Positions 608 to 44,656 of a stretch of DNA of 64,000 nucleotides are shown here, one piece after another (position 1 is the first letter of the stretch; each line of letters begins with the position of its first letter). This DNA is from Streptococcus urinalis 2285-97. Its GTDB lineage: Bacteria; Bacillota; Bacilli; Lactobacillales; Streptococcaceae. The position numbers and the translations under genes were made by a program. The stretch is from positions 1,750,001-1,814,000 of the forward strand of contig NZ_AEUZ02000001.1 of assembly GCF_000188055.2 (NCBI RefSeq), read 5' to 3'. The notes below the pieces were generated by a model. The model was not told the DNA's origin, ran no database searches, and saw nothing but the letters and a program-made list of their open reading frames with translations.

Positions 608-619
608 ATTGACCTCTCT

Positions 620-2628: not shown

Positions 2629-2637
2629 GAGGTTATT

Positions 2638-3333: not shown

Positions 3334-3360
3334 AAAACCAGGATAAATCCTGGTTTTTTT
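3332..3360. terminator. Bidirectional rho-independent terminator
   Basis: AAAAAACCAGGA / TCCTGGTTTTTT stem with a short loop, placed between convergent genes; it serves the PTS-glycosidase operon on + and the hypothetical gene on -. Confidence 0.85.
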
Positions 3361-3658
3361 ATGCTAGTTGATACACTTTTGTGCTGACTAACTCAAAGAC
3401 ATCATTTTCTTGAAACCAAATCGCATTCCAGTCAGCTTGAGAGCGCTCAAAAGCTGTCCTTTCTTGGTAATCTTCAATTGTCTGGTAATAGATATTTAAA
3501 GAAATATCGGTGTAGTCATTGTGTTCTAAAAATGCCATTTCAATTTTTGTATTTGTTAGCTGAGAATCAAACTTGGGGTCAGCTGATTCAGCAAATTTTG
3601 CCAGTAACTGTTCTTTATTTATTGTCTTGACACGATATAAAAAGTCTACTCTAATCAT
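3359..3658 (-). CDS. Conserved hypothetical protein, small cytoplasmic
   Basis: I do not recognise a named family. The 99-aa product has no signal peptide or membrane segment. The alternation of short strands and helices (MIRVDFLYRVKTINKEQ..., DISLNIYYQTIEDYQERTAFERS) is compatible with a dimeric alpha/beta-barrel (antibiotic-monooxygenase-like) fold; this is a guess from pattern. The ATG at 3656-3658 has a GTGAG ribosome site. It is a single gene between two convergent or divergent operons, with the terminator at 3332-3360 just after its stop. Confidence 0.6.
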   Translation of the reverse strand: MIRVDFLYRVKTINKEQLLAKFAESADPKFDSQLTNTKIEMAFLEHNDYTDISLNIYYQTIEDYQERTAFERSQADWNAIWFQENDVFELVSTKVYQLA

Positions 3659-3858
3659 TTTTTTCTCACTTTTTCTTTAGTGGCTTTAGTTTACTAAAGA
3701 CTTTTAGATATAGCAAGAAAACCAACTTTACTACTCCTTTATGATAGGTAAAATTTACTTAAAGACTAAAAAGATTAAAAATTAAAAACAAAATTCAGAC
3801 AGTATGGAAAAGTTTTGATATTATTATTATAATATCGCTTTTTTAAGAGGAGAAAATA

Positions 3859-7973: not shown

Positions 7974-7975
7974 CT

Positions 7976-9355: not shown

Positions 9356-9381
9356 TCAACTCCTTTTTGAATTTTACAGTT

Positions 9382-9663
9382 TTATTGTTCACTCATCTCC
9401 TTAAGGACAGGAACAAGACTTTCTTCAATTTTTTTACGATTAGTATAACTTTTGACAATACAAAGTTTAGTGCCTGCTGGAAAAATATCCTCAAATTCTT
9501 TTACGGTTACATAAAGGTCTGCATTCTTTCCAACTGCAGCATTTGAATCACAAGACTCAGCATCAACGTCGATACCCAAATCTTTTGCGATTGCTTCAAC
9601 TTTCATTCTTAGTAATAGACTACTTCCTATACCATTTCCACAAACGGTTACAACTTTAATCAT
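9382..9663 (-). CDS. Ascorbate-type PTS EIIB
   Basis: A 93-aa cytoplasmic phosphocarrier. The phosphorylated cysteine is in the N-terminal loop VTVCGNGIGSSL, which is the signature of UlaB/SgaB-type EIIB. It overlaps the stop of the upstream PRD regulator gene by 4 bases (ATGA) and precedes EIIC by 26 bases. It transfers phosphate from EIIA to the incoming sugar held by EIIC. Confidence 0.88.
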   Translation of the reverse strand: MIKVVTVCGNGIGSSLLLRMKVEAIAKDLGIDVDAESCDSNAAVGKNADLYVTVKEFEDIFPAGTKLCIVKSYTNRKKIEESLVPVLKEMSEQ

Positions 9664-11708: not shown

Positions 11709-11951
11709 CTTTCATCCTCCTACAGTTCAATTATACAAGTAAGCGTTTCCAACAACAAGCTTATTTTAGCCCAATTTAGAACAAAATGATAAACCTCTTC
11801 TTGTGCTAAATCTTGATAAATCCTTTTATATAGCTATTTATTCCTATTTTTAATTTTTGGGTTTTTCCATATTTTAACGTATTTATTTGATCTTTTATCA
11901 TTTGGTTATCACTTTTAATAACATTAAATTTAAAAAAAATTATATCTTTTG
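11709..11951. other. Divergent intergenic region with cre-like site
   Basis: About 300 bases separate the PRD operon (left, minus) from pmtA (right, plus). AGTAAGCGTTTCCA at 11738-11751, read on the minus strand as TGGAAACGCTTACT, matches the cre consensus at 12 of 14 positions and would lie near the start of the PRD operon transcript. The remainder is AT-rich, and I see no gene in it. Confidence 0.45.
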
Positions 11952-11988
11952 TTGACTTTTCACTCTTCCTTAATTATAATCATTATAA
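11952..11988 (+). promoter_or_regulatory. pmtA promoter with perfect PerR box
   Basis: -35 TTGACT (11952-11957), 17-base spacer, -10 TATAAT (11975-11980). The palindrome TTATAATCATTATAA at 11974-11988 fits the PerR box (TTANAATNATTNTAA) exactly and covers the -10, so PerR would block transcription and peroxide or excess iron would relieve it. Confidence 0.85.
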
Positions 11989-12013
11989 ATAAGGAAATAA
12001 GTAGGAAATAATC

Positions 12014-13819: not shown

Positions 13820-13848
13820 AAAGGACTTAGGAAAGTCCTTTTTATGAT
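13813..13848. terminator. Bidirectional terminator between pmtA and the PTS operon
   Basis: Long palindrome ATCATAAAAAGGACTT...AAGTCCTTTTTATGAT with a 3-4 base loop and T runs on both sides, between convergent genes. Confidence 0.85.
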
Positions 13849-13858
13849 TTTTGATAAT

Positions 13859-14143
13859 TTATTTGTCCAATTCTTCTCTTAATTCTTCCCAAAGACCATC
13901 AGTTCCAATTCCAGTGAGAAGAGGTAAACCCATGATTACCTTGTCTTTGATATTATCAGGAACTACAGTAGTACTAATGACAATGTCATAATCGTCGATT
14001 TTGTTAACTTCCTCCGCTACTTTTGATTGATATAATTTAACTGAGTCAGAATAACCATTTTCTGAGAGCCATTCTTTGACCTTTCCTGTTACAACTGTAG
14101 AAGTTGCAATGCCTGATCCACACATTACTAGTAATTTTTTCAT
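13859..14143 (-). CDS. Galactitol-type PTS EIIB
   Basis: A 94-aa phosphocarrier with the phosphorylated cysteine in LLVMCGSGIATSTVV, the GatB signature. I start it at ATG 14143 (MKKLLVMCG), with GGTG six bases upstream; a GTG three codons earlier is possible. It is the last gene of the PTS trio EIIA-EIIC-EIIB and ends before the terminator shared with pmtA. Confidence 0.88.
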   Translation of the reverse strand: MKKLLVMCGSGIATSTVVTGKVKEWLSENGYSDSVKLYQSKVAEEVNKIDDYDIVISTTVVPDNIKDKVIMGLPLLTGIGTDGLWEELREELDK

Positions 14144-25886: not shown

Positions 25887-26339
25887 TCTAAACCTCCCTT
25901 GTTCTTTTCTTCATTTTATCATAAATTTCAAGTAGACAACGTCTTATGCTATAGCATCACTATCTTTAACAGTTATCGAAATTTTAAATATTTTTAATTA
26001 TAAGCTATTACGATTTATTCTATTATTCTGAAGAGCTGAACAAAATTAATAGTGGAAAGAAATCCTTTTGAAAACCTCGAAATCAACATAGGAAATTTTA
26101 GTGAATACTCTTGATTTCTAGACAAAAAAAGACACCCAAGATAAAAATCCTGAATGTCTTGAAACGTTGATATATCGCAGATAATTAACGTTTTGAGGCA
26201 CAGAGACGTTGTCTCCTTTGCAGCCGTATTCGTAAGCAACTGAAGTTGCAACGACTGCGTCAATTGTACTGCCAGTTCCCAATAAAAAATACTCCATGAA
26301 AATCCATGAAGTATTATTCTGCTGTTATGTAGCTGGTTC
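25887..26339. other. Gene-free region left of the rpsI-targeted elements
   Basis: The region holds no convincing gene. On the minus strand, reading away from the rpsI copy at 26340, it contains a terminator (26284-26315), then a structured stretch of about 110 bases beginning GAACTGGCAGTACAATT (26293 down to about 26190), then a second terminator (26128-26164, AAGACA...TGTCTTTTTTT). A related stretch lies downstream of the real rpsI. The two terminators could bound a small RNA. Confidence 0.4.
26284..26315 (-). terminator. Terminator following the left rpsI 3' copy
   Basis: Minus strand AATACTTCATG / CATGGAGTATT with a short loop and TTTTTT. It sits where the rpsI terminator would be, but its stem differs from those at the other two copies. 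Confidence 0.75.
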
Positions 26340-26390
26340 TTAACGTTTAGAGAACTGGCTAGCTTTACGAGCTTTTTTAAGACCTGGTTT
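26340..26390 (-). repeat. Left attachment-site copy: rpsI 3' end duplicate
   Basis: Read on the minus strand it encodes [20 protein letters not shown], identical in protein to the end of RpsI, but with different codons (GCT AGC CAG ... TCT) from the other two copies. This is typical of an integration site inside a conserved gene end. Direct repeats are at 30454-30504 and 35876-35926. Confidence 0.85.
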
Positions 26391-26493
26391 TTGGTTCATT
26401 CTGTTTTTTAAAGTCAAATCCCTTTAAAATCAACGTTTCTAAATCCAAATATAGTTAAAATTCTTATATATACACAAATATTTAAACTCAAAC

Positions 26494-26513
26494 GGTATCA
26501 AAAAGGTATCAAA
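26494..26513. repeat. Tandem GGTATCAAA repeats near the left end of element 1
   Basis: GGTATCAAAAA and GGTATCAAA in tandem, about 100 bases inside the left att copy; a third similar copy is at 30368-30382 near the right end. These are candidate integrase arm-binding sites by position. Confidence 0.4.
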
Positions 26514-26553
26514 TCTCTAAGGTTTCGGTGCTTATAAAATAATGAAAATTTGT

Positions 26554-26603
26554 CTCAATATTGAGTCTTTTTTTATTGACTTTTTTTATGTGTATGAGAT
26601 AAT
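26554..26603 (+). promoter_or_regulatory. Promoter and palindrome upstream of the toxin-antitoxin operon
   Basis: CTCAATATTGAG (26554-26565) is a perfect palindrome. It is followed by -35 TTGACT (26576-26581), a 16-base spacer and -10 GATAAT (26598-26603). The palindrome may be an antitoxin-binding site or the end of an upstream transcript (a T run follows). Confidence 0.5.
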
Positions 26604-26633
26604 TAAATAAATTACATAAAGGAGTTACATAAT

Positions 26634-26921
26634 ATGGTTACAGCAGAAAAAAATAGAGCTGTCACATTCCAAGCTAACAAAGAATTGGTAAGCGAAGCAA
26701 TGACAGTATTAAACAAAAAAAATTTAACCTTATCATCTGCTTTAAGATTATTCCTACAAAATGTCGTTGTCACAAACGAGGTTGACTTATTGACGGAAGA
26801 GGAGTTAGAGAAAGAAAAACTTTTCAAGCAATTTCAAGCCGAAATCAGCAAAAATATTGAGGATGTTCGTCAAGGGAAGTTTTATACCTCTGAAGAAGTG
26901 AGGGCTGAACTTGGACTATAA
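26634..26921 (+). CDS. RelB/DinJ-family antitoxin
   Basis: A 95-aa protein whose N-terminus (NRAVTFQANKELVSEAMTVLNKKNLTLSSALRLFLQNVV) fits the ribbon-helix-helix DNA-binding domain of RelB/DinJ antitoxins. The charged C-terminal half (LTEEELEKEKLFKQFQAEISKNIEDV) would wrap the toxin. AAGGAG lies upstream of ATG 26634. It overlaps the toxin gene by 11 bases. It is immediately inside the left end of element 1 and would help keep the element. Confidence 0.8.
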   Translation: MVTAEKNRAVTFQANKELVSEAMTVLNKKNLTLSSALRLFLQNVVVTNEVDLLTEEELEKEKLFKQFQAEISKNIEDVRQGKFYTSEEVRAELGL

Positions 26922-27246
26922 GAAATATCAGATTATCTATGCTCCTGATGTTTTAGAGAAGCTAAAAGAAATTCGTGATTATATTTCCCAAAACTATTCC
27001 TCAACATCAGGTCAGCGTAAAATGGAGCAAATCATTAATGACATAGAAAAACTTGAAGTTTTCCCAGAAGTTGGTTTTGATGCCGATGAAAAATATGGTT
27101 CAGAAATCAGCAATTATCACAGTACTAGAGGTTACACCTTAAGTAAAAATTATATTGTCCTATACCATATCGAAGAGGAAGAGAATAGGGTTGTTATTGA
27201 TTACTTGCTTCCTACTCGAAGCGACTATATGAAATTGTTTAAATAG
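26911..27246 (+). CDS. RelE/ParE-family toxin
   Basis: A 111-aa toxin of the RelE/ParE superfamily: IIYAPDVLEKLKEIRDYISQNYSS at the N-terminus, KLEVFPEVGFD in the middle, and the C-terminal YTLSKNYIVLYHIEEEENRVVIDYLLPTRSDYMKLF strands. It starts at a TTG inside the antitoxin gene, so translation is probably coupled. RelE members cut mRNA on the ribosome and ParE members poison gyrase; the sequence alone does not decide which. A terminator follows. Confidence 0.8.
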   Translation: MDYKKYQIIYAPDVLEKLKEIRDYISQNYSSTSGQRKMEQIINDIEKLEVFPEVGFDADEKYGSEISNYHSTRGYTLSKNYIVLYHIEEEENRVVIDYLLPTRSDYMKLFK

Positions 27247-27251
27247 CAATC

Positions 27252-27282
27252 AAAAAGCCTTAGCGTAATGCCAAGGCTTTTT
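27252..27282 (+). terminator. Terminator of the toxin-antitoxin operon
   Basis: AAAAAGCCTTAGC / (G)CCAAGGCTTTTT type hairpin with a T run, immediately after the toxin stop. Confidence 0.75.
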
Positions 27283-27550
27283 GAAGATTACAAATTAACT
27301 AGGAGCAAAATTAGTTTGGGCTGTTTAGTAGATATTCCACAAGGCAGAGCCAACCCTGTATTGATAAACAACACCTTTGAGAAAACTGTTACCAGTCAAT
27401 CAACCTTCTCCTAATGTAAAAGCTGAGAACCCAGTCGGGGATTTACCTAAGTATACTCAGGAGGCAACACCTCTACCTAATACCTTCAATAAGTATTTTT
27501 TGAATGAATTGTTACCAATTCAAACTCAATCTCAACTTTCTTCCACTCTA
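27283..27550. other. Gene-free stretch with possible surface-protein remnant
   Basis: No intact gene. On the plus strand two adjoining frames read VDIPQGRANPVLINNTFEKTVT and then, after a frame change, PVNQPSPNVKAENPVGDLPK and YTQEATPLPNT. The proline-rich character and an LPNT ending hint at a broken wall-anchored protein, but this is weak. Confidence 0.2.
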
Positions 27551-28021
27551 TCACTTTTTATTACCTTTTGCAAGGCTTTTATAAACATTAATTTGTTCAA
27601 TCGGTAGCATTGTGTCCATGGTTTTAATTAGTCGATGATAGATTGCGTAACGTGTGTCCGGATTGGAAATATCAGCAATAAAATTTCTATATCCCTTAAC
27701 ATAATCTTCTTCATCAGTTGGCAAAATACCTATCAGCATCTTTGTACTATCTTTTGGATTAACCTCATATCCAAATCTGATATTGTAATTAGCTAGTTCA
27801 TTTTTTATACGATAAAGCTCTAGACCATTATTGTAAAAATCATTGAATTCTGGGACTTCAAACAATGACGTATCAATGTCTAAATTGTCTTCTGCCACAT
27901 AAGAATATGTCCACCAAAGTAGGAATAAAAGATTTTTACCGGTGTAGGTAGGTCCTACTCCTCCCGTATCTTTTTTTGATAAGTCATGGTCAAAGTAATA
28001 AACAATTTTTTTATCTGTCAT
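27551..28021 (-). CDS. Hypothetical protein of element 1
   Basis: A 156-aa soluble, acidic protein that I do not recognise. It begins MTDKKIVYYFDHDLSKKDTG and has a hydrophobic patch KNLLFLLWWTYSYVAED at about 29-45, not long or pure enough to be a clear membrane segment. It is codirectional with the relaxase gene and starts about 170 bases after it, with the large palindrome at 28054-28168 between. A clear ribosome site (GGAGAAATTAAA) precedes ATG 28021, so it is probably expressed. Function unknown. Confidence 0.6.
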   Translation of the reverse strand: MTDKKIVYYFDHDLSKKDTGGVGPTYTGKNLLFLLWWTYSYVAEDNLDIDTSLFEVPEFNDFYNNGLELYRIKNELANYNIRFGYEVNPKDSTKMLIGILPTDEEDYVKGYRNFIADISNPDTRYAIYHRLIKTMDTMLPIEQINVYKSLAKGNKK

Positions 28022-28053
28022 TTTAATTTCTCCTTGCTCATTTATTCCATGGT

Positions 28054-28168
28054 TCTCTTGACAACAAGTAACCTAGACTGTTTTAGCCTATGGCGATCGG
28101 TCGCCAGTTCTTTAGCATGACGACTCGACCCCATCTAGTCTAAACTTGCCTAGCTTGTTATCAAGAGA
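28054..28168. repeat. Large imperfect palindrome, candidate single-strand origin
   Basis: Outer arms TCTCTTGACAACAAG (28054-28068) and CTTGTTATCAAGAGA (28154-28168) pair with one mismatch; inner arms TAGACT (28074-28079) and AGTCTA (28137-28142) pair perfectly; the apex has GGCGA-TCGG-TCGCC (28092-28105). A folded structure of about 115 bases next to a mobV gene is how single-strand origins lie on pMV158-type plasmids. The class (ssoA/U/T/W) cannot be told by eye. Confidence 0.5.
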
Positions 28169-28188
28169 CTTTCACGGCATAAAAATAG

Positions 28189-29445
28189 CTAACTATTACT
28201 ATCAACCATCTTCTTAACTTGTCTGATTGCTGTTTTAGCTAAACCAATAGGATTTAGAGAGTTTATGATTGATAATGTTTCTCTATAAACCTGTTTAGGC
28301 ATAAATTCTTTAGCTTTTTCTTTCCAAACAGAGAGGCTTTTATTCAGAATTTTCACTTGTTCATCAAGCATTTTTACTTTGTCCTTTAATTTTCTGTTTT
28401 CTTGACTTAATTTGATATTTTTATCAGCTGTCTTACGGTGATTGAGTAATTCTCTAGAAAGGTGATTGTTCTGCGACTGGGCTTTAACCAACTCTCTTTT
28501 TAACTCAGCATTACTAGATGCATGTTTCGAAGCAGTTTGAAATAGTCTATTATAGGTTTCTTTATCCATCTTCAATTTGCCATCAAAGCTTTGTTTTACC
28601 AAATCTTCTTTTTGAATTCTATCAAGTTGTAATAGTTCAATGTCTTTTATGTCTTCAATGCTTTCAGCTAGTGACTGTTTCTCTAATTCATACTGCTTCA
28701 AATCGCCAACAGCATCCCATTCTTTCGCTTCCAATTCTTTAAGCCTACTTTCTTTATCAGCTATTGTATCGTTAACATTTGAAATCTTATCATCAAGTGC
28801 TTTCAATTCTTCATGTTTATCAGCTAGTTTTCTATCAGCGTTATCCAGTAATCGTTGTTTTTCTTTAAATTCAGCAGTTTCCAAATGTTTTTTCTTACTG
28901 CCTATTTCGCCACGTTGTAGGTTAAAACCATGCTCATTAAGGTACTTGGGAAGTTCATCTTGGATTGCTACAAGTTTCTCTTTATTTCCAAACAGTGCTT
29001 TTGAACTTCACTTACCATTTTTCATTGGCACGATACCTAAATGCATATGCGGAGTACTTTCATCAAGGTGAACTCTAGCGTAAGCAATATTAGCATCACC
29101 ATATTTTTCAGCAAAATAATCTTTAGCTGTCTCAAAAAACTCTCGTGTCTGTTTCTCATCTAACGAGTTAAAAAACGTTTTATCTGAAGTAATAATCCAT
29201 TCGTTACAGAGTATAGCATCTTTACGGACTCCACGAGTAGATAAGCGATTTTCATTGATATGCTCCTTTATTTGTTTGTGATAATTTTGTGCCTGGTCTC
29301 GATTTGTCAGTTCATAATTAAGGTGAGATTTCTCAACGTCAATTTCTTTATTTGAGTGATTTTTAAAAATCCGTTCATTATGATTATAAATAGCCGTCAA
29401 CTGACCTGACTTGTACTTAGCCCTTCTAGCAACAACATAACTCAT
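28189..29445 (-). pseudogene. MobV/Pre-family relaxase with an in-frame TGA
   Basis: The frame covers 419 codons, full length for MobV relaxases. Residues 1-145 include the HUH metal-binding signature HLDESTPHMHLG, with the rest of the catalytic N-terminus. A TGA at 29008-29010 interrupts the frame after PMKNGK and the same frame resumes as SSKALFGNKEKLVAIQDEL and a long coiled-coil (about 190-360). A single base change (TTA to TGA at a leucine position in relatives, from memory) would explain it. The truncated 145-aa product would lack the end of the relaxase domain. An oriT-like hairpin lies upstream at 29561-29586. Confidence 0.85.
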
Positions 29446-29483
29446 TTTTTAATTCTCCTTTCTCGGCTCAAAAGGTCGCCGAG

Positions 29484-29506
29484 ATGGTGGCGGTAATTGC
29501 CACCAT
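29484..29506. repeat. Hairpin between oriT and relaxase gene
   Basis: ATGGTGGC (29484-29491) and GCCACCAT (29499-29506) form an 8-base perfect stem with a 7-base loop, upstream of the relaxase ribosome site. Confidence 0.6.
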
Positions 29507-29560
29507 GAATAAGCAACCTATTATCTGGATTTCTTCTTAAGGGATCGGCATAACTTCCAT

Positions 29561-29586
29561 GTAAAGTGTAACGCACTACACTTTAC
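29561..29586 (-). other. MobV-type origin of transfer (oriT) core
   Basis: Perfect 10-base inverted repeat GTAAAGTGTA / TACACTTTAC around a six-base loop read GTGCGT on the minus strand. The pMV158 oriT has the same plan (AAAGTATA-GTGTGT-TATACTTT, nick within TAGTG/TG). By analogy the nick here lies after TAGTG in the loop. The site is 115 bases upstream of the relaxase start, as expected for this family. Confidence 0.8.
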
Positions 29587-29605
29587 TACGTAAATGTGCG
29601 TTCTC

Positions 29606-29775
29606 CGAAGGGTCTTGCAGACAGCTCTTCGCTCCGAATACAGGAGCGACTTCGAACCACCTCTCGAGCCACAAGAGGAGCTTCGATTATACTCGCCGAA
29701 GCGAGTAGGGCACTTAAGCAGTGCCCTTGGTCGGACGCTTCGCATTGTCCGACAATTGCCATCAAAAGATGGCAA
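29606..29775. repeat. Cluster of seven consecutive stem-loops beside oriT
   Basis: Stems, in order: CGAAG/CTTCG (29606, 29627) with inner GTCT/AGAC; GCTCC/GGAGC (29631, 29643); TCGAA/TTCGA enclosing CCTCT/AGAGG (29652-29686); ACTCGC/GCGAGT (29691, 29701); GGGCAC/GTGCCC (29708, 29721); GTCGGAC/GTCCGAC (29730, 29747); TTGCCATC/GATGGCAA (29756, 29768). The stretch is visibly more GC-rich than its surroundings. ORFs on both strands here are palindrome artefacts. The last hairpin overlaps the 3' end of the adjoining gene. Candidate roles: ssDNA structure at oriT, a replication origin, or a structured RNA. Confidence 0.65.
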
Positions 29776-30196
29776 GCCATATTGCCACTAATAAAGTGAT
29801 TACCATGACAGCTAAAGTAATAATCAGCAATAGCTTCTGTCGTTCCAAGCTCCGAACATAGTTGAGTAACTCATAATTTTTTTGTACCAAGTTTTGGTTG
29901 TCCTCAAGTAAAGGAGTTAACTTGTCAGCTAGTCTATCTATCCGATATTGCATTCCCTTCTTTTCTTGCTCGAATTCTTCTTGAATATCACCCAGCGTTT
30001 TTTCCAGTTCAATGACATCATTCTCAAAATGATAATCTTCAAGTATCTTAATGCCTATCAAATCAAGATTTTCAACCTTTTGGTTGTCTCGGTATAAATG
30101 ACCTTTCAACATTTCTTTATATTTTGGAGAGCGTATGCGTTTATAGATAGATTGGCTACTAACTCCTAGACTATCAGCATAATCTTTTATTCTCAT
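29762..30196 (-). CDS. HTH-coiled-coil-membrane protein of element 1
   Basis: A 144-aa protein with an N-terminal helix-turn-helix (MRIKDYADSLGVSSQSIYKRIRSPKYKE), a long charged coiled-coil (about 50-115) and a C-terminal membrane anchor (LLLIITLAVMVITLLVAIWL). This layout resembles plasmid DUF536-type replication/partition-associated proteins, many of which lack the membrane anchor. I start at ATG 30196 (GAGG six bases upstream). It is transcribed toward the hairpin cluster and oriT. It may tether element DNA to the membrane; this is inference. Confidence 0.65.
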   Translation of the reverse strand: MRIKDYADSLGVSSQSIYKRIRSPKYKEMLKGHLYRDNQKVENLDLIGIKILEDYHFENDVIELEKTLGDIQEEFEQEKKGMQYRIDRLADKLTPLLEDNQNLVQKNYELLNYVRSLERQKLLLIITLAVMVITLLVAIWLAIF

Positions 30197-30453
30197 TTTT
30201 GACCTCGTAACTCCTTGATAATACTGAATTTTCAACAAAAGGGTTGAAAGCTATTTTTGTCTATCCTACCCCCATAATAAGCGAGCTGATTTTCTAGTCT
30301 TGGTCTTTCATGCTTCAACAAGTCTTTCAGCAAACCTAACAGTCAAAAAAGATGGAGAAGTTTTTTCAAAAAGGTATCAAAAGCAAAAACGACAAAAAAA
30401 GCACCTTGCAAGAGACTTGCAAAATGCTTGTAATCGTTGATGTAAAGGGGTTC
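30197..30453. other. Right end of element 1, gene-free, with arm-like repeat and terminator
   Basis: Contains AAAAAGGTATCAAAA (30368-30382), similar to the tandem repeats near the left end, and a terminator (30394-30429, minus strand GCATTTTGCAA / TTGCAAGGTGC then TTTTTTT) that follows the middle rpsI 3' copy. No gene is visible. Confidence 0.5.
30394..30429 (-). terminator. Terminator following the middle rpsI 3' copy
   Basis: Eleven-pair stem with G-U pairs and a T7 run on the minus strand, in the position an rpsI terminator would occupy. Its TTGCAA core resembles the terminator after the true rpsI. Confidence 0.7.
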
Positions 30454-30504
30454 TTAACGTTTTGAGAATTGTGATGCTTTACGGGCTTTTTTAAGACCTG
30501 GTTT
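30454..30504 (-). repeat. Middle attachment-site copy: rpsI 3' end duplicate
   Basis: Encodes [20 protein letters not shown] on the minus strand with codons matching the true rpsI (GCA TCA CAA TTC TCA) except for a few silent changes. It is the junction between elements 1 and 2. Confidence 0.85.
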
Positions 30505-30706
30505 GGAAAGTATGAGTTTCAGTTGGGTTAAAAACAGTGCAATATCAAGGCTTTTCAGAACGATATCTACTAATTAATTTCATAAAATTTGAATCAATAT
30601 TTTTAAAATGGGGAAATAGTTTAGGTATGTAAGAATTAATATAATACGCCAAACCTTGGTCACCATTTTTAGTTATTCACTCTTTTTTCAGATAGTGTTT
30701 TTAAAG
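30505..30706 (-). other. Gene-remnant region at the left of element 2
   Basis: On the minus strand an open stretch without a start reads NGDQGLAYYINSYIPKLFPH and continues to ISRYRSEKP-stop (ending about 30564). It may be the 3' end of a lost gene; I do not recognise the family. Confidence 0.25.
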
Positions 30707-31024
30707 TTATGATGTAAAATGGTAAAATGCCGCAATTAAAACACTATACATCATAATCGGAGGATAGACAATTAAAGATAGAATCAATCCCACTCCTTTA
30801 ATTATTAGGTCAGGTATCAATAACTTTCTATATTGTGCGGTAGCTTCAAGTAATTCTTTCTGATCTATATTGGGTTTATCAATTACTTTATGTAAAAACC
30901 AGTTTGCTACCGTTGAAACAATAACAATCAGTCCATAAAAGAGCTGTGCCGTATGATTCATGAAATGACTACTAACTATTCCAGTAGCATAGGGCATAAA
31001 TGAAACAAAAAATAAAAGATACAA
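30707..31024 (-). pseudogene. DUF1211 (TMEM175-like) channel, C-terminal fragment
   Basis: The 105-aa frame resembles the second half of bacterial TMEM175/DUF1211 potassium channels: LFFVSFMPYATGIVSSHFMN followed by a membrane segment and IIKGVGLILSLIVYPPIMMYSVL. These proteins are about 190-200 aa; the N-terminal half is missing and the frame is joined upstream to a broken XRE regulator. There is no good start codon. It lies downstream of cadD-cadC on the same strand. Confidence 0.6.
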
Positions 31025-31030
31025 ATTCTT

Positions 31031-31164
31031 TCAAATTCCTCCCTTTTCAACTTGGCTAACTTGACCTGCATTACCTAGGTCGCTTGCTTTAAATTATACT
31101 TTTTTCTTAAACATTTGATACGAGTAGGTATTTCTTGTGAGTAATTTTCATCAAAAAATTTCAT
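31031..31164 (-). pseudogene. XRE-family HTH regulator, N-terminal fragment with frameshift
   Basis: ATG 31164 follows GGGAG and starts MKFFDENYSQEIPTRIKCLR, then KKYNLKQA, the beginning of an XRE helix-turn-helix. The frame then stops (TAG at 31075-31077), but the next frame continues DLGNAGQVSQVEKGG, the rest of the recognition helix, and stops at 31031. The rest of the gene has been replaced by the DUF1211 fragment. Confidence 0.6.
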
Positions 31165-31207
31165 ATATAATCTCCCTATAACCATGGAAAAGTAGTAAAA
31201 ATAGTTG

Positions 31208-31546
31208 TTATCCTAGTTGATTAAAAAAATCTCTGATTTCCTCATCTTTTATAAAATAATATATAATTTTCCCCTCTCTTCTAGTGTCCAAGATGTTTTG
31301 ATTGGCTAGTTTACGAAGATGGTGGGAGGCAGATGCCATACTGAGATTTAATAAACAGGCTATATCGCAGACACAGAGTTCTTCGACGGCAAGGAGATAA
31401 AAAATGATATTTATCTGTTTATTATCGGTAAATTTTGATAAAATGCGAAGTGATTTTTGGACTTTTTCCTTTTCAAGGTAGTTCGTTGCGGTTGTAACAT
31501 TTTGTTGATTTATAACATCCATTTGACAGATACTATCTTTTTTCAT
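31208..31546 (-). CDS. cadC: Cadmium-responsive ArsR/SmtB-family repressor
   Basis: A 112-aa winged-helix repressor. The metal-site motif ELCVCDIACLL lies in the recognition region (about 58-68) and the DNA-reading helix is MASASHHLRKLANQNIL; a further cysteine is near the N-terminus (SICQMD), as in CadC/CadX. I start at ATG 31546 with TAGGAG upstream; it overlaps neither neighbour and follows cadD by about 12 bases. Cd, Pb or Zn binding would release it from the operator at 32183-32202. Confidence 0.88.
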   Translation of the reverse strand: MKKDSICQMDVINQQNVTTATNYLEKEKVQKSLRILSKFTDNKQINIIFYLLAVEELCVCDIACLLNLSMASASHHLRKLANQNILDTRREGKIIYYFIKDEEIRDFFNQLG

Positions 31547-31557
31547 AATTTTTTCTC

Positions 31558-32172
31558 CTAGCCTAACACAGCCCATAGCATGTCAAAGCTGTTGTTTTCA
31601 ATCAGGATATACATCCCCAATCCTAAATAGACAACGGCAATAAACCATCTGCTATATTTTTCCAAAGTTTCTCCAACAGAAGGGACTTGTGCTAATTTTT
31701 GGGCAGAAAAAACCAAGAGATAAATCATGACTAGAAAAGTAAGTAAAGTCACTATCAAATTCGCTAAATTTAAGGTGGTAAAATATGGGACAAAGACACC
31801 AATATTGTCAGCACCACAACTTGCAAAAGTAATCATAGCGACTAGAAAAATCAGGTTTTTATTGTCTTTTCGCAAACCATCTTTTGCAATAGCTTCTCCA
31901 TCAGAATCTCCTAAAAGCAAAACTTTGAGGCCTAGGAAAATTGGAATCAAACCGAGTAAACCTAAAATCTCTTTACTAGGAATATAATTTAAGACAAATG
32001 CAAAAAGCAAACTTAGGGATATTAGACTAACAGAGCCTAGAAATTGTCCTAAATAGATGTTAATGATGTCCTTTCTGCTTTTTCTTTTGGCAAAAAATAA
32101 CATTAGGATAATAAGTAAGTCTACGGCTGTCCCAGAATACAGGATTATTGAAGTAACAATATTTTGAATCAT
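31558..32172 (-). CDS. cadD: Cadmium resistance transporter
   Basis: A 204-aa membrane protein with five to six hydrophobic segments, of the CadD family. Features are GTAVDLLIILMLFFAKRKSRKD near the N-terminus, LGQFLGSVSLISLSL, and the conserved FASCGADNIGVFVPYF near residue 120. It exports or sequesters cadmium, in a two-gene operon with cadC. ATG 32172 has a GGTG-type ribosome site. Confidence 0.9.
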   Translation of the reverse strand: MIQNIVTSIILYSGTAVDLLIILMLFFAKRKSRKDIINIYLGQFLGSVSLISLSLLFAFVLNYIPSKEILGLLGLIPIFLGLKVLLLGDSDGEAIAKDGLRKDNKNLIFLVAMITFASCGADNIGVFVPYFTTLNLANLIVTLLTFLVMIYLLVFSAQKLAQVPSVGETLEKYSRWFIAVVYLGLGMYILIENNSFDMLWAVLG

Positions 32173-32182
32173 AAAACACCTT

Positions 32183-32202
32183 ATTCAAATATATTTTTGA
32201 AT
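32183..32202 (-). promoter_or_regulatory. CadC operator at the cadDC promoter
   Basis: ATTCAAA-six bases-TTTGAAT inverted repeat immediately upstream of cadD. CadC/CadX operators have the same TATTCAAATA...TATTTGAATA plan, so self-repression by CadC is expected. Confidence 0.75.
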
Positions 32203-32862
32203 GTATTCTAACATTAAACTTTGTAGATGTCAACTTAAAATCCACCAATTAATAATTGCATGTCAATATTTGTATTGTGAAACTAGTTTCAGAAATATAT
32301 AGTCTTAAAGTATGTCCACTGCCAATGATTTTTTCAATATTTAAGAGGAGATTTATAATGGTTCATTTCTATAAATTTTTAAACGAGTTATATATTTTGT
32401 TTAACCAATTATTAACTATTTTTATCAATAATCACTTCATTAATTTGTACTTTTTAATTTTGATTTATTTTTCGTGCATATTTTATATGAATTTAATTCT
32501 AATACATTTTAAATAAAAAATACGCAATTTTAATTGGCACCGACCCCCGTAAATGAGAATTAAATAAAAACACCTCCAAGTTGGATTTGGTACAATATAA
32601 TCAAATGCTCATGGAGGTGGTTTTTTATGGTTAAAAAACGTGTGGAGACGGTGGTATTATTGTCAAGAAAATAGAATAACAAGCTATAAAACTGTCGAAA
32701 TAGGTGGCTTTTAGGATTTTTAAAAGAAATCGGTTCTATAATAAATTAAAAATCGTCTACTTCTACCAACACGATTTCACAAAGAGCCAGTACTTACATC
32801 TCTTTTTCTCCTGTAAAACTATTGTATCTTGATACTTTAAGGAGTTTCAATCATTCGATCTG
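32203..32862. other. Gene-free region with insertion-sequence remnants
   Basis: About 660 bases without an intact gene. CACCTCCA (about 32572-32579) and TGGAGGTG (32612-32619) form an inverted repeat. GGAGGTGG then serves as a ribosome site for a 15-codon open frame MVKKRVETVVLLSRK (32627-32674) that looks like a cut-off gene start. Further right, read on the minus strand, GGCTCTTTGTGAAATCGTGT (about 32760-32779 region) resembles an ISL3-family end. Confidence 0.3.
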
Positions 32863-34989
32863 TTAACCGTTATTTTTTGGATCTAAACTTAATAACATAG
32901 CATTAATGGCGACGATGACTGTTGACACAGACATTAGGGTTGCTCCTAATGCAGGGCTTAATGTGATACCAATAGGAGCCAAAATTCCTGCAGCTAGAGG
33001 GATAGCTATAAAGTTATAACCAGCTCCCCAAAATAGGTTTTGTTTCATTTTACGAGTTGTTTTGTGTGCTAATTCAATGAATGATTCAATATCTCCTGGA
33101 TCGGATTGAGTCAATATGACATCAGCTGAATCCAACGCAACTTGAGTTCCAGCACCTATAGCTATACCAACATCTGCTAAGGCAAGAGAAGGAGCATCAT
33201 TTACACCATCACCTACCATGATAACTTTCTTTCCTTCATCTTTAAGTGTTTTAACTAACTCATATTTGTCTTGTGGAGATTGATTTGATCTATATTCAAT
33301 CCCTAAATCTACTGCCGCGCCTTGAGCCGCTTTTTCATTATCACCTGTTGCCATAATTGGTCGAATATTGTTCTTTTTAAGAGCTTTAATTAACTCTTTA
33401 CTCGTTGGTTTTAATTCGTCCCCTAAAGCTACAGAACCAATGGCATCATCGTTTTCTACTAAGACACTAAGAGTTGCTCCTTTTGGAGTATCCATATCAA
33501 GATTACGTCCATAGGCTTTTTGACTGATTAATTGGTAACGGTGCCCACCTGCTTTACCCTCTACTCCAGAACCGGAAATCACATCAATCGAATCAAAAGA
33601 TGCTGGACGTATATTTTGCTGCTCGGCGAAACTTATAATTGATTGAGCAATTGGGTGGCTAGATCCTCCTTCAATACCTGCCAATAAGGCAATGATTTCC
33701 TCTTTTGTATATTTGTCATTAAGAAGTTTTACATCTAATACTTTAAATTCACCAGTTGTTAAAGTACCCGTTTTATCTAAAATCATCACATCTGCATCTT
33801 GAGCTATTTCTAAGGCTTGGCGGTCTTTTACTAGTAAGCCACGGCTAGCTCCTAAGCTTGTGCTACGGGCGGTTACCAATGGAATAGCCAGACCCAATGC
33901 GTGCGGACAAGCAATAACTAATGTAGTAATAGTAAATATAACTGCCGTTGGGATATCTCCAATAATCCTCCACACTACAAAAGCAATTAGCGCGACAATA
34001 ACAGCAATATAGAAGAGCCACCCTGCAACCTTTTGAGCAATATTTTCTGCTCTGGAAGGCTGACTTTGAGCTTGGCTGATTAAATTCTGAACTTGAGAGA
34101 TGAAGGATTGATCACCTGTCTCATTCACTTTAATATAAAGAACCCCTTCTCCATTTGTTGAGCCCCCGATTACTTCATCGCCAGGGCCTTTTTTAACTGC
34201 TTTTGATTCTCCAGTCAAAAGAGCTTCATTTAAACGTGATTCGCCACGCTCGATAATCCCGTCTGCTGGCACATTTTCTCCGGCTTGAACACGAATTAAA
34301 TCACCTACCTGTAAGTCAGCAACTGGTCGTGTTTCAATTGAATCGTCTTCTAATACAACGTGAGCATCTTTCGGCACTAACTTAGCCAATTCTGCTTGTG
34401 CGTCTCCTGCTTCTCCAATAGCTTTCATCTCAATCCAGTGACCTAATAGCATGATTAATAGTAATGAAGCAAATTCAAAGAAAAAGTCCATCACGTGTTC
34501 ACCCGTTACGTAGGTAATGATCACAGCATAAATACTGTATAAATATGAAACACTTAAACCTAAAGAAACGAGTGCCATCATTCCAGGTTCTTTTTGTTTA
34601 AATTCGTCAACTGCACCTTGATAGAATGGACGTCCACCATAAATAATTAATATAGTAGATAAAATAGCTACTACAATATCAGAATATGGAAAAGTAAACT
34701 GGAATGGTAGTTCAAATCCATGCAAAGGGACTAAGAGCATAATAATGATTCCTAGTGGCAATGACTTTAAGAAAAGTTCCTTAAAGCTTCCGTGATGATG
34801 GTGATCATGTCCACTGTGTCCGCTGTGATCATGTCCACTGTGCCCGCAGTGATTATGCCCAGCATGATGTACTTGATGTTGCTCCTTATGGTATCCATGT
34901 TCATCTGTGATTCCATGCTCGTGTTTTAACTTATCCATGTCGTCATAATCATGGTGATTATGGGAGGAATATTTGTTGTAATTATTCAT
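32863..34989 (-). CDS. copB: Copper-exporting P1B-type ATPase (CopB type)
   Basis: A 708-aa pump. The N-terminus (about 1-65) is histidine-rich, with repeated HSGHDHSGH and HHHH, as in CopB. It has the actuator motif LTGESKAV, the transmembrane metal motif CPH in VIACPHALGLA, DKTGTLT, SSHPIAQSI and GDGVNDAPSLA. CPH pumps (P1B-3) move Cu(I)/Cu(II) or silver out of the cell. It is 20 bases downstream of copY in the same operon, so expression depends on the CopY operators at 35481-35523. Gene length is normal and the frame intact. Confidence 0.92.
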   Translation of the reverse strand: MNNYNKYSSHNHHDYDDMDKLKHEHGITDEHGYHKEQHQVHHAGHNHCGHSGHDHSGHSGHDHHHHGSFKELFLKSLPLGIIIMLLVPLHGFELPFQFTFPYSDIVVAILSTILIIYGGRPFYQGAVDEFKQKEPGMMALVSLGLSVSYLYSIYAVIITYVTGEHVMDFFFEFASLLLIMLLGHWIEMKAIGEAGDAQAELAKLVPKDAHVVLEDDSIETRPVADLQVGDLIRVQAGENVPADGIIERGESRLNEALLTGESKAVKKGPGDEVIGGSTNGEGVLYIKVNETGDQSFISQVQNLISQAQSQPSRAENIAQKVAGWLFYIAVIVALIAFVVWRIIGDIPTAVIFTITTLVIACPHALGLAIPLVTARSTSLGASRGLLVKDRQALEIAQDADVMILDKTGTLTTGEFKVLDVKLLNDKYTKEEIIALLAGIEGGSSHPIAQSIISFAEQQNIRPASFDSIDVISGSGVEGKAGGHRYQLISQKAYGRNLDMDTPKGATLSVLVENDDAIGSVALGDELKPTSKELIKALKKNNIRPIMATGDNEKAAQGAAVDLGIEYRSNQSPQDKYELVKTLKDEGKKVIMVGDGVNDAPSLALADVGIAIGAGTQVALDSADVILTQSDPGDIESFIELAHKTTRKMKQNLFWGAGYNFIAIPLAAGILAPIGITLSPALGATLMSVSTVIVAINAMLLSLDPKNNG

Positions 34990-35008
34990 TTTAAATTCCT
35001 CCTTATGC

Positions 35009-35458
35009 TTAATGATGATGTAAATGACATTCGCATTGTCCTTCTGGACAATTGCAATCCACTTCTTCTACTGCGAAAGATTTTTTCATCTCTAATATTT
35101 TTTCTAGTCGATCTATATCATCGAAGCTTAAAACATGATCTTCAATGATGCTTCCTATTACATTTCCGACTTTCTTATTTCAAATACGGTTAAAAATATC
35201 TTCTGCATAATCCCTTACGGCTTCTGTCTCTTCAATATTGGCAGTGTAAATAAACTTTCTACCTTCATGCTCTGTATTTAGTACGCCTTTTCCAACTAAT
35301 CGACCTAAGATCGTTTTGATAGTGGATTGTGTCCAGTCCATTTTTTCTTGCAATACGGAAATGACTTTTTTACTAGTTACTCGATCATTTGCCCAAACTA
35401 CACGCATGACTTCCCATTCTGCATCTGTGATATAAGTATTAAATTCTATTGTGCTCAT
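35009..35458 (-). pseudogene. copY: CopY-type copper repressor with in-frame TGA
   Basis: BlaI/MecI-type winged-helix repressor. ATG 35458 follows GGAGGAG. Residues 1-92 contain the DNA-binding domain (YITDAEWEVMRVVWANDR..., STIKTILGRLVGKGVL). After DIFNRI a TGA (35180-35182) stops translation. The same frame continues NKKVGNVIGSIIEDHVLSF to VDCNCPEGQCECHLHHH, containing the CxC...CxC copper-sensing motif. In relatives a cysteine sits near the stop, so TGC/TGT to TGA is a likely single change. The truncated protein would keep the DNA-binding domain but lose the copper sensor and possibly the dimer interface. Confidence 0.88.
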
Positions 35459-35480
35459 TCTCCTCCCCCCCATATTTGTC

Positions 35481-35538
35481 TACAGATGTAAACAAATATG
35501 TTTAAAATGAGTTTACCATTGTAAACGAATTGTGTCAA
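35481..35538 (-). promoter_or_regulatory. cop promoter with two CopY boxes
   Basis: TACAGATGTA (35481-35490) fits the CopY box core TACANNTGTA exactly. A second site, TACCATTGTA (35514-35523), differs at one base and lies between -35 TTGACA (35533-35538) and a -10-like TAAACT. CopY at either box would block the copY-copB transcript. Confidence 0.8.
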
Positions 35539-35875
35539 GTCTTTTTATTAAATTCTCACTTTTTGATGTCAGTCCCTTAAAACATGCTATTTTTATCATT
35601 GATAAATATTAATAGCTAACTTTCCGAAAAATAAGTATTTTCCTGAAACTTTTTTATTTAGTTATAATAGACATTTCTAGATATTTCCATTATGTAGTGG
35701 TTGCCATCCAATCAAACATCGCTCTACTTGTTTTCTTGAGGCAACTGTGCATAGCATATCTCTATGCGACTAAAGTCGTTAGAGCTAGCCTAATTGTGTA
35801 CCGCCAGTTCTCATACAAAAAATACCTTGCAAGTTGCAAAGTATTTTCGTTTGTATTGTGCTTCCCAGCAACGAA
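35539..35875. other. Gene-free region between cop promoter and rpsI
   Basis: It contains the rpsI terminator (35817-35845) and, just downstream on the minus strand, a structured stretch of about 110 bases beginning GAACTGGCGGTACA, with CGACT/AGTCG and GCATA/TATGC stems and ending near GTTGCCTC. A related stretch follows the left rpsI copy (26190-26293). The rest is AT-rich with no gene. Confidence 0.45.
35817..35845 (-). terminator. Terminator of the rplM-rpsI operon
   Basis: Minus strand AAATACTTTGCAA / TTGCAAGGTATTT followed by TTT, about 30 bases after the rpsI stop. Confidence 0.8.
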
Positions 35876-35926
35876 TTAACGTTTTGAGAATTGTGATGCT
35901 TTACGAGCTTTTTTCAAGCCTGGTTT
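35876..35926 (-). repeat. Right attachment-site copy within intact rpsI
   Basis: The last 17 codons of the functional rpsI. It forms a direct repeat with 26340-26390 and 30454-30504. Integration here leaves rpsI intact because the element supplies the same codons. Confidence 0.85.
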
Positions 35927-36268
35927 TTTACGTTCAACCATACGTGCATCACGTGTAAGAAGTCCAGCGCGTTTTAATGAATCACGGAAATCTGGGTCAA
36001 CTTCTAAAAGTGCACGTGAGATACCATGACGTATCGCACCTGATTGACCAGCGTATCCACCACCGATAACGTTAACAAAAACGTCATATGAACCTTCAGT
36101 TGAAGTAACTGCAAAAGGTTGGTTGATAACAAGACGAAGGTCTGCGTGTGGGATGTATTCTTCTACATCTTTCTTATTTACAGTAATTTTACCTGTACCT
36201 GGTACTAAACGAACGCGTGCAACAGCGTTTTTACGACGACCAGTACCTGTGTATTGTGCTTGTGCCAT
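35876..36268 (-). CDS. rpsI: 30S ribosomal protein S9
   Basis: A 130-aa ribosomal protein with the family start [23 protein letters not shown] and the basic tail [16 protein letters not shown] that reaches the P site. It is cotranscribed with rplM (20 bases between). Its 3' end is the integration target of the two elements downstream, and its terminator now lies in element DNA. Confidence 0.98.
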
Positions 36269-36735: not shown

Positions 36736-36845
36736 GATTTCTCCTATACGAATTCGTAATATGTGTTTACAGTTGTGGATGTTCCGGTCCACGAGTTATT
36801 TGGAAGGTTCCGGGGCCTTTCAAATGGGGTAAACAATACCGTCTA
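36736..36845 (-). ncRNA. L13 ribosomal protein leader
   Basis: The untranslated leader of rplM contains conserved L13-leader segments on the minus strand (AACCTTCCAAATAACTCGTG, GACCGGAACATCCACAACTG). Promoter: -35 TTGCTT, 17 bases, -10 TATCAT at about 36846-36874. L13 is known to bind this type of leader in Firmicutes. Confidence 0.8.
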
Positions 36846-41506: not shown

Positions 41507-42256
41507 TCAATTATCTATTTCTGACCAGTCAATCAAAATTTGCTGATCATCAAATGGGTTAATAGCGACACCAAAGGTCTCATCAATATCATTTTCCCCA
41601 TTTCTAGGTTTATAGATATCATCAATTTTCCAAGTCAAAATGGTCCCTTTTCCTCTTCTAAAAGCACCTCCAAAGTCATCTTGGTTGTACCATTTAGCCA
41701 GACTTTGTAAGTTTGAAAATGCTGGCACATAGCTCTTCCCTTCAGGAGTAGCCATTGTTGGAAATAGTCGATCATAAAATTGATTATCCTTAGGAAGTAC
41801 AAAAGCAGGAACAAAATAAAACTTATCCATAGTTTCTGCCGATTGATTATCGTCACTCATCACAGTATTTAAAATAGTTGTGAAGTTATTAATAAATTGA
41901 ATCATATCAGAACTTTTAAAAATCGTTGAATTTGTAAAATCGCCTACTTTTTTCAAGTTAAAGACAAGTCCAGATAGTCCATTTTTAATGACATCTTCAA
42001 GCACAGTTAGCGCAGATTGTTCACGCCAAACTTGGATTTGAGCACTTTCTTGTTCTGTTTTAAATTGATTCAGATCTTTATAGTCTGTAAAGACAGGAAC
42101 TACCTTTACGCCGTCAACTTCAATAGCATAAAGATCTTTTCCTACTAAAACAGGATATTGATGCAAGGCATTAACTAAACCAACACATTCTAAAAAATTA
42201 TCTGGTGCATTGATAAATGTCCTTAAACGGAGATCAAGTTCTTTATTTAGTGTCAT
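41507..42256 (-). CDS. SseB-family protein
   Basis: A 249-aa cytoplasmic protein with an SseB-like N-terminal domain ([34 protein letters not shown]). I start at ATG 42256 ([11 protein letters not shown]), which overlaps the pnp 3' end by 14 bases and suggests coupled translation. The biochemical role is unknown. It has a fixed place between pnp and cysE. Confidence 0.8.
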
Positions 42257-44441
42257 CTTTATCTTCTTTTTTATTTCTTTGTACAAAGTCTTTTTTAGGA
42301 GCTTTGTGACTTTCTTTATCGTCGTCTTGTTTTTCTGGTTTTGGAGGTTTTGGTAGTAAAGCTTTCATTGAAGCATCTACTCTACCTTTATCATCAATCT
42401 TGATAACCTTAACATCAACTTCTTCACCAACTTCAAGGACATCCTCAACTTTATTTGTACGTGTCCAAGCGATTTCTGAGATATGAACAAGAGCATCTGT
42501 CTTATCAAAAAGATTGACAAAAGCACCAAATTTTTCAATACGGACAACTTTTGCATGGTAGACTTCGCCAACTTTAGCTTCACGAACTAAGCTTTCAATA
42601 ATCGCTTTTGTTCTATCAATAGCAGATTGATCACTAGAGAAGATTTGAACATTTCCTTCTTCATCAATATCAATTTTAACACCAGTTTCTGCGATAATTT
42701 TATCAATAGTTTCGCCACCTTTACCAATGACAACTTTGATTTTATCAACATCAATTTTAACGGTGTCAATTTTGGGAGCTGTTGGTGCCAATTCTGGACG
42801 AGGTTCTTTGATAGTAGACTCAATCAAATCAAGAATTTCAAATCTAGCTTTTTTAGCTTGTGCTAATGCTTCTTCTAAGATTTGTGGTGTGATACCTTCA
42901 ATTTTAATATCCATTTGAAGCGCCGTGATACCATCACGTGTTCCAGCAACTTTAAAGTCCATATCACCAAAGTGATCTTCAAGGCCCTGAATATCAGTCA
43001 AAACAGTGTAGTTCTTTCCATCTGAAATAAGACCCATCGCAATCCCAGCAACTGGTGCTTTAATTGGCACACCACCTGCCATTAGGGCTAATGTCCCCGC
43101 ACAAATTGATGCTTGTGATGACGAACCATTAGATTCTAAAACTTCAGCAACTAATCTAATAGCATATGGGAATTCTTCAATATCTGGTAATACTTGTGCT
43201 AAGGCTCTTTCTCCTAGGGCACCGTGTCCAATTTCACGACGGCCTGCTGCACCATAACGACCAGTCTCCCCAACAGAATATTGTGGGAAATTATAATGAT
43301 GTAAGAAGCGTTTTTTGTATTCTGGCTCAAGACCATCAACAATTTGTGTCTCACCCATTGGTGCCAAAGTCAGAACAGACAATGCTTGTGTTTGTCCTCT
43401 AGTAAAAAGTCCAGAACCATGAACTTTTGGTAAAAAGTCAATCTCAGCATCCAAAGGTCTAATTTCATCAATTTTACGACCATCCGGTCTAACCTTATCT
43501 TCTGTAATCAATCGTCTGACTTCAGCATGTTCCATTTGTTCAAGAATTTCGATAACATCACGGTTGATTCGCTCAATCTCTGGATCTTCCTCATAACGTT
43601 CTGTATATTCTGCAATAACTTGTTCACGAACTGCATTTGTGGCATCTTGACGAGCCAACTTCTCTTCAACTTGAACAGCTTTTGCTAGGCTGCCATAGTA
43701 CTTATCATTAATTTCTTTTTGTAATTCAGAATCAACTTGCAATAACTCAACTTCGGCCTTTTCTTTACCTACAGCTGCAACAATCTCTTCTTGGAAAGCA
43801 ATTAACTCTTGAATGGCTTTATGACCAGTTAAAAGAGCCTCAAGCATAACTGATTCTGAAAGTTCTTTTGCACCAGACTCAACCATATTAATGGCTTCTT
43901 TGGTACCAGCAACGGTTAATTCTAAACTGGATTTTTCCATTTGGTCTTTGTCAGGATTGATGACAAATTGACCATCAATATAACCTACTTGCACACCGGC
44001 AATTGGCCCGTTAAATGGAATATCAGAAATAGATAGTGCTAATGATGATCCAAACATGGCTGCCATTGGTGCACTTGCATTTTCATCATAAGATAAAACA
44101 GTGTTAATCACTTGGATCTCATTGCGAAAGCCTTCAGCAAACATCGGACGAATTGGTCGGTCAATTAGTCGTGCCGTTAGAGTGGCATCAGTAGATGGAC
44201 GACCTTCACGTTTCATAAAACCACCAGGGAATTTCCCTGCAGCATACATTTTTTCCTCATAGTTAACTTGAAGTGGGAAGAAATCCCCAGTTGCCATTTT
44301 TTTTGACATAACTGCTGCTGTTAAGACAGTTGAATCTCCATAACGAACGACAGTTGCTCCATTTGCTTGCTTAGCTACTTGACCAATTTCGACAATTAAT
44401 GGTTTACCAGCAAAAGTCGTTGAAAATGTTTGTTTTGTCAT
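42243..44441 (-). CDS. pnp: Polynucleotide phosphorylase
   Basis: A 732-aa 3'-5' exoribonuclease. Two RNase PH domains (about 1-230 and 310-550), with the active-site region [19 protein letters not shown], a KH domain ([21 protein letters not shown], about 565) and an S1 domain ([20 protein letters not shown], about 625). The C-terminal tail ([20 protein letters not shown]) is charged and variable. It forms trimers and takes part in mRNA turnover. Confidence 0.97.
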
Positions 44442-44656
44442 TTTTTCATTTGAAACAAGGCCTATTCCTTAAGTCTCGTTTCTTTCCTCTCTTATTTATT
44501 GTCTTTTTTCTACGTTGTTTTGCTACAAAAAACAATCTAGAAGGCATTTCTAAACTCTTCTTTGTATAAAACCACGTATCTCTACTATTTTATCATATTT
44601 GACCTAAAATAACACCTTGAAAAAAAGGGTGATTGCTTCTTTTTAGTTCCAAATAA
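44442..44656. other. pnp leader region
   Basis: Gene-free. Minus strand contains a -10-like TGATAAAAT (about 44590) and a long AT-rich leader. No clear autoregulatory duplex is evident by eye. Confidence 0.35.

Follow-up and report, generated by a model that had tools for sequence, protein, structure and literature searches.

In streptococci, the 3' end of rpsI is a target of integrative and mobilizable elements (IMEs) and integrative and conjugative elements (ICEs), and the part of PMC5357655 on this site describes three families of tyrosine integrase that use it, Tyr_4, Tyr_5 and Tyr_7, with accretion of elements. For IMESag-rpsI of Streptococcus agalactiae, the sections of PMC5090054 on this element describe circular intermediates and a functional relaxase. 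For Streptococcus salivarius, the portion of PMC7563491 drawn on here gives composite islands at rpsI as 16/37, cis-mobilizable elements (CIMEs) that lay farthest from the target gene, and gene-free microCIMEs of 130-220 bp. Here we describe the region behind rpsI in Streptococcus urinalis 2285-97, analysed in a window of 64,000 nt (contig NZ_AEUZ02000001.1, positions 1,750,001 to 1,814,000). With a probability of about 0.9, we consider this region to be a tandem array of non-autonomous elements, produced by repeated tyrosine-integrase recombination at the rpsI 3' end.

The array is a new example of a structure already known for rpsI in streptococci, namely IMEs, CIMEs and microCIMEs. It has in common with the rpsI-targeting IMEs and ICEs the same target, several integrase families, long or short repeats and accretion, as far as that part of PMC5357655 describes them, but the window keeps only integrase-less remains. 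One of its units, Unit A, resembles IMESag-rpsI in its site at the rpsI 3' end, its MOBV relaxase gene and its toxin-antitoxin of the RelBE type, and a relative of Unit A, the locus L182, adds the integrase, HTH_3, RepA_N and rep, which gives the gene set published in those sections of PMC5090054. Unlike IMESag-rpsI, Unit A has an interrupted relaxase gene and is without the integrase, the helix-turn-helix gene, RepA_N and most of rep. The likeness to the CIMEs and microCIMEs at rpsI of S. salivarius lies in repeat-bounded units without signature genes, in cadmium cargo, mostly found in CIMEs, in gene-free units of the microCIME size and in tandem composites at rpsI (PMC7563491, same portion). 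In contrast to the CIMEs described there, our second unit, Unit B, is the one nearest to rpsI, with the decayed IME beyond it; in another genome (G003) it lies between rpsI and an integrase open reading frame (ORF), whereas the array of the window is integrase-less. The position of Unit B beside rpsI thus seems to depart from the rule for S. salivarius CIMEs as that source gives it. New here are the deletion scar of Unit A, the sharing of Unit B between species, and a longer array with a microCIME and a fourth core.

Layout of the array behind rpsI

A first, sequence-only reading of this DNA had pointed to three copies of the rpsI end in the same orientation, starting at 26340, 30454 and 35876, the last of them alone belonging to a full rpsI. 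Both statements were borne out, as a degenerate pattern of the 51-nt tail found exactly three matches in the genome of 2,130,431 bp (0 for the backwards control pattern), and the full rpsI of 130 aa carries only copy 3. The copies are all on the minus strand and end in the same encoded residues, their pairwise identities are 44, 42 and 47 of 51 nt, and their start-to-start spacing is 4114 and 5422 bp, in agreement with the two tandem units of about 4.1 and 5.4 kb that had been proposed. The same reading let the accessory DNA begin at 26340, and this did not hold. A fourth, partial tail core of 12 nt, TCAAAACGTTAA, was found at 26185-26196, so that the array reaches 26185 and contains at least one further tiny unit. 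The sequence at 26123-26197 showed 92% identity to the end of rpsI and the DNA following it in S. vicugnae (L014), with a flank score of 47 of 60. Because of the fourth core and this rpsI-3'-like sequence beyond 26185, the displaced stretch amounts to about 9.7 kb. The order away from rpsI is copy 3, a short gene-free segment, Unit B, copy 2, Unit A, copy 1, the microCIME and the 12-nt core, as follows.

35876-36268, minus strand: rpsI, intact, 130 aa
35876-35926, minus strand: rpsI-tail copy 3, the present gene end
35693-35875, minus strand: gene-free microCIME-like segment (89% identical to the 183 nt that follow the distal tail copy in L016, 90% in L059)
30505-35692, minus strand: Unit B, integrase-less cadmium/copper CIME (part conserved between species, 30505-35641)
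30454-30504, minus strand: rpsI-tail copy 2
26391-30453, minus strand: Unit A, judged to be a decayed IME of the IMESag-rpsI type
26340-26390, minus strand: rpsI-tail copy 1
26197-26339, minus strand: gene-free microCIME (a single match in the genome)
26185-26196, minus strand: fourth partial core TCAAAACGTTAA
26118-26184, minus strand: probable ancestral rpsI 3' untranslated region (UTR) and terminator, by similarity to the S. vicugnae rpsI end

The flanks of the copies indicate where their neighbours came from. The 60 nt beyond copy 3 are exactly those that follow rpsI in S. sanguinis SK355, a carrier of Unit B, in which rplM-rpsI is 88% identical. For the 60 nt beyond copy 2, the match is to intact IMEs, at their integrase-side end (alignment score 56 of 60), and copy 2 was therefore probably once the rpsI end itself. 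Beyond copy 1, the matches were weak and the best score was 26 of 60. The flanks of copies 3 and 2 support the earlier proposal that rpsI is a hot spot whose end is rebuilt by incoming elements. Each incoming element would bring its own last rpsI codons, restore the gene and push the previous end outward, and the most distal remains would be the oldest. An IME at Unit A would have lost its integrase and most of its rep, its relaxase gene becoming interrupted, and Unit B would have arrived after Unit A, between copy 2 and the gene. At an earlier stage, or in a previous host, an integrase of an rpsI family may have inserted Unit B, either in trans or in cis, in the latter case supplied by an element accreted beside it.

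The use of rpsI as an integration site was also seen among other streptococci. The named rpsI loci are the best 80 of at least 578 confirmed, and 42 of the 80 are from Streptococcus; 40 of these, after L014 and L037 with less than 1.5 kb were left out, have at least 1.5 kb past rpsI. A tyrosine integrase ORF facing rpsI and ending 50-400 nt past its stop was present in 23/40, as detected by a hidden Markov model from the 8 integrases of the S. urinalis genome, by which distant families may be missed. The fetched DNA of 14/40 loci held an extra rpsI-tail copy, and 31/40 showed at least one of these two features. Some loci (L numbers) and genomes (G numbers) are very probably the same and were counted once (G186 and L039, G204 and L065, G190 and L041, G043 and L056, G024 and L037).

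Unit A and its integrase-bearing relatives

The following features were recognized in Unit A.

30337-30339, minus strand: deletion scar with a 3-nt microhomology, TTA, by comparison with L182
29762-30238, minus strand: 158-aa ORF, resembling the 150-aa ORF of L182 (6241-6693) by place and, by eye, sequence
29008-29445, minus strand: N-terminal piece of a MobV relaxase (Mob_Pre 1-144/196)
28189-28884, minus strand: C-terminal piece of the MobV relaxase (without a Pfam match, and 36% identical to its counterpart in L056)
27551-28021, minus strand: 156-aa ORF, resembling the 157-aa ORF of L182
26911-27246, plus strand: ParE/RelE-type toxin (ParE_toxin, 5.3e-10)
26634-26921, plus strand: RelB-type antitoxin (RelB, 0.0016, below the Pfam cut-off)

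The sequence-only reading had noted that no integrase gene remains in either unit, and in the window the stretches between the tail copies contain neither a PF00589 nor a PF00239 match. It had called the inserting enzyme unknown or acting in trans, and had proposed a search of strain genomes for an integrase-bearing element at rpsI. Relatives of Unit A with an integrase were found, L182 among them. L182, an intact rpsI-located relative in genome G061, is 81% identical over positions 115-4063 of Unit A and 88% identical over positions 7-117 beside the tail copy, and about 4.3 kb of L182, lying between its two aligned parts, is missing from Unit A. The missing stretch carries the integrase (PF00589), HTH_3, RepA_N and most of a RepD-like rep initiator, and beyond it L182 has Mob_Pre, followed by RelB/ParE-like ORFs. 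At the scar the TTA is common to both sides, and the missing part starts at the stop codon of the integrase. An integrase at the same place was also found in L056 (same record as L186), L184, L185, L187 and L188. Among the matches listed for 284 genomes, the alignment runs across the scar in one piece only in the S. urinalis genome itself.

The relaxase gene of Unit A is split into two ORFs where one gene of 438 aa is expected. Compared with the definition of IMESag-rpsI, Unit A lies at the rpsI 3' end between repeats and has the RelBE-type toxin-antitoxin, and it lacks the tyrosine integrase and an intact MOBV relaxase. Since the relatives carry an integrase where the window has the scar, and the relaxase is interrupted, Unit A is, judging from these comparisons, a decayed IME of the IMESag-rpsI type, the integrase type of which is known. 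The statement on the enzyme thus falls for Unit A; action in trans is kept for Unit B, as one of two routes. In addition, L190, L193, L194 and L196 share the proximal end of the same IME, and no full-length adjacent integrase was detected in them (L194 has a short fragment). The same element type has probably decayed in them independently.

Unit B and the explanations weighed

Unit B carries the following genes.

35180-35473, minus strand: short repressor of the CopY/BlaI type, 97 aa (Pfam Penicillinase_R), presumably CopY
32863-34989, minus strand: P-type ATPase, 708 aa (E1-E2_ATPase and hydrolase domains), which we take to be CopB-like
31558-32172, minus strand: CadD cadmium resistance transporter (Pfam)
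31208-31576, minus strand: CadC/CadX regulator of the ArsR family (Pfam and plasmid matches)
30707-31024, minus strand: 105-aa ORF without a Pfam match, conserved in L039, L065 and L041

A Pfam search found no integrase, relaxase or conjugation gene among the ORFs of Unit B, and repeats of the attachment site, copies 2 and 3, stand on both of its sides, as defined for a CIME. Unit B was searched for in the 284 Streptococcus genomes, 283 of them other than its own, and about 86% or more of it was present in 7/283 (G186, G182, G003, G022, G024, G082 and G279, the last holding it in two pieces); G008, with parts on two contigs, was not counted. A tail copy follows Unit B in all 7 relatives, and in 6 of them the alignment runs straight into it; in G024 the last approximately 620 nt are unmatched, and the tail copy comes about 270 nt past the last aligned base. 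A tail copy also precedes Unit B in 6/7, although in G024 this proximal tail is not a full rpsI.

The identity of Unit B is 95-97% in four relatives (L039, L164, L165 and L166), and that of rplM-rpsI is 86-91% in the three of them that have rpsI. In L044, a contig of a metagenome-assembled genome named Candidatus Atopostipes pullistercoris, the identity is 96-98% (10460-14050) and that of rplM-rpsI is 77%; being metagenome-assembled, with its contig ending inside Unit B, L044 is weaker evidence. The presence of Unit B beside rpsI in L044 reflects either transfer beyond Streptococcus or a fault of binning or assembly. The jump in identity, taken with the 60 nt after copy 3 that are identical to those of SK355, suggests that the present rpsI end of the window very probably arrived with the Unit B element.

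It is conceivable, though rather unlikely, that natural transformation, followed by homologous recombination via rpsI and the neighbouring elements, accounts for the spread of Unit B, the tails being only hitchhikers. Streptococci are often transformable, and the lack of a detected integrase or relaxase in Unit B would fit such a route. However, the high identity reaches no farther than the distal tail copy at one end of the unit, drops within 235 nt past the rpsI stop at the opposite end, and does not run into rpsI/rplM. Moreover, Unit B changes its neighbours: it adjoins rpsI in three genomes (G186, G003 and G022), whereas its distance past rpsI is about 36 kb in G182, where an integrase adjoins rpsI, and about 14 kb in G082, where no integrase was detected. 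These observations are more in line with mobility of Unit B itself, which may have taken place in trans or in cis.

An enzyme still encoded in this genome might also act in trans on the array, as the genome has 8 PF00589 matches, the nearest about 54 kb from the array, and 6 PF00239 matches, which were counted only. We regard this as quite improbable, because identity between the 8 tyrosine integrases and the tail-adjacent ones does not exceed about 32% where more than 100 residues align, and a direct search of the genome with the L182 integrase gave 30-33% at best. Closer integrase pairs exist (44% between L006 and one in L035, 39% between L008 and one in L193), and those partners do not lie beside a tail copy. 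Neither the comparison of the 8 PF00589 proteins nor the search with the L182 integrase revealed a tyrosine integrase of the rpsI-adjacent families in this genome. Simple local duplication of the rpsI end without any mobile element, which three direct repeats beside their parent gene might bring to mind, was rejected as hardly credible, for the copies differ, their 3' flanks match different sources, and the intervening units are shared with other species.

Several points weigh against an array built by repeated integration. No rpsI-adjacent match to the genes of the left flank was found among the 284 genomes, a collection of one genome per species. Neither an integrase nor an extra tail was seen at 9/40 Streptococcus rpsI loci. 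In G279 there is no tail copy in about 26 kb upstream of the two-piece Unit B, and the distal tail is altered. The exact proximal end of Unit B is also blurred, because its conserved start at 35641 lies 235 nt from the rpsI stop. As to the left flank, a match to its phosphotransferase system gene in G004 (70%) sits away from rpsI. The 3' UTR part of the left-flank query matches directly after rpsI in several genomes, such as G242, G151 and G057; these matches are only supporting, as similar sequence also occurs at element ends. Taken together, we still favour the tandem array of elements inserted at rpsI.

With regard to the source of Unit B, L022 and L038, two loci in which an integrase adjoins rpsI, each contain the cadCD region at 95% identity, and no intermediate between an ICE or IME and the CIME was found. 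A plasmid origin was rejected: 12 of 72,556 plasmid records match, the best with 39% coverage at 72% identity, and the plasmid matches at 95.7% cover only 20%, the cadD/cadX part. In the literature searched, no report combined cis-mobilizable element, copper, cadmium and Streptococcus. The cadD region (718 nt at 93.6%) was also seen in NZ_CP119140.1 and NZ_CP119142.1, chromosome-sized records of the plasmid collection labelled Neisseria gonorrhoeae, which are perhaps mislabelled or contaminated. In L165 (G003), at 7282-9444, an integrase ORF on the far side of Unit B overlaps a transposase ORF, which we assume to be IS3-like, and this integrase may be disrupted.

Small segments, the hairpin and meaning

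The microCIME at 26197-26339, 143 nt long and bounded by copy 1 and the 12-nt core, has no gene and falls in the published size class. It contains one further feature.

26218-26266, minus strand: conserved covarying hairpin in the microCIME (covariation, model matches)

This region of 49 nt is present in the microCIME and its relatives, and 91.3% of the cells pair in 8 distinct sequences, some of which were also used to derive the structure. Changes on both sides were seen in 6/13 pairs, a number reached by 10/500 shuffles, and the covariation score was above all 500 shuffles and all slid versions. On the other hand, the count of further pair types, reached in 491/500 shuffles, is not exceptional, and in 5/8 sequences one pair does not form. 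A model of the hairpin matched 18 of the 80 named loci and the window at E < 0.001; of these 18, 7 are in the model, 3 have 49 nt identical to one of these, and 8 are others. All except L073 (17/18) lie 3' of rpsI or of a tail copy. They include L015, L024, L047-L049, L069 and L071, from Streptococcus, Enterococcus and Trichococcus, and in L047-L049, L069 and L071 (Enterococcus and Trichococcus) the match begins at the rpsI stop. A pattern search gave one match in each of 8 genomes, with a second, diverged copy in L024. In the second small segment of the window (35748-35796), the model reached only an E of 2.

We tentatively raise the possibility that the microCIMEs at rpsI are not mere debris. 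The hairpin, kept by compensatory changes, could be a structured RNA that belongs to the rpsI 3' end, has so far gone unrecognised and is displaced by integrations, or a folded arm of the recombination site of rpsI-targeting elements, although both remain doubtful. No Rfam family reached its gathering score in the small segments searched; rli61 (28.3 bits, cut-off 50) and LhrA (18.2 bits, cut-off 100; 26123-26337, spanning the hairpin) were below their cut-offs and were taken as chance. At the start of the small segments 35693-35875 and 26270-26339, after a terminator, stands part of the rpsI end in inverted orientation (GAGAACTGGC or similar); by eye, it seems to track the host allele, being TTACTAAATTG in several loci of the mitis group. 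Elsewhere in the window, an L13 leader stands 5' of rplM at 36760-36840 on the minus strand, as expected. The Rfam family rliD, a Listeria antisense RNA, was above its gathering score at 44295-44459 on the plus strand, opposite to a pnp-like ORF (42243-44441) and its upstream end.

The locus provides a base-resolved case of the decay of an integrated element, in which a deletion removed the integrase side of an IME, while the neighbouring integrase-less cargo bears marks of spread between species. With its several arrangements, Unit B offers a natural means of testing if the movement of CIMEs is confined to cis, together with a neighbour.
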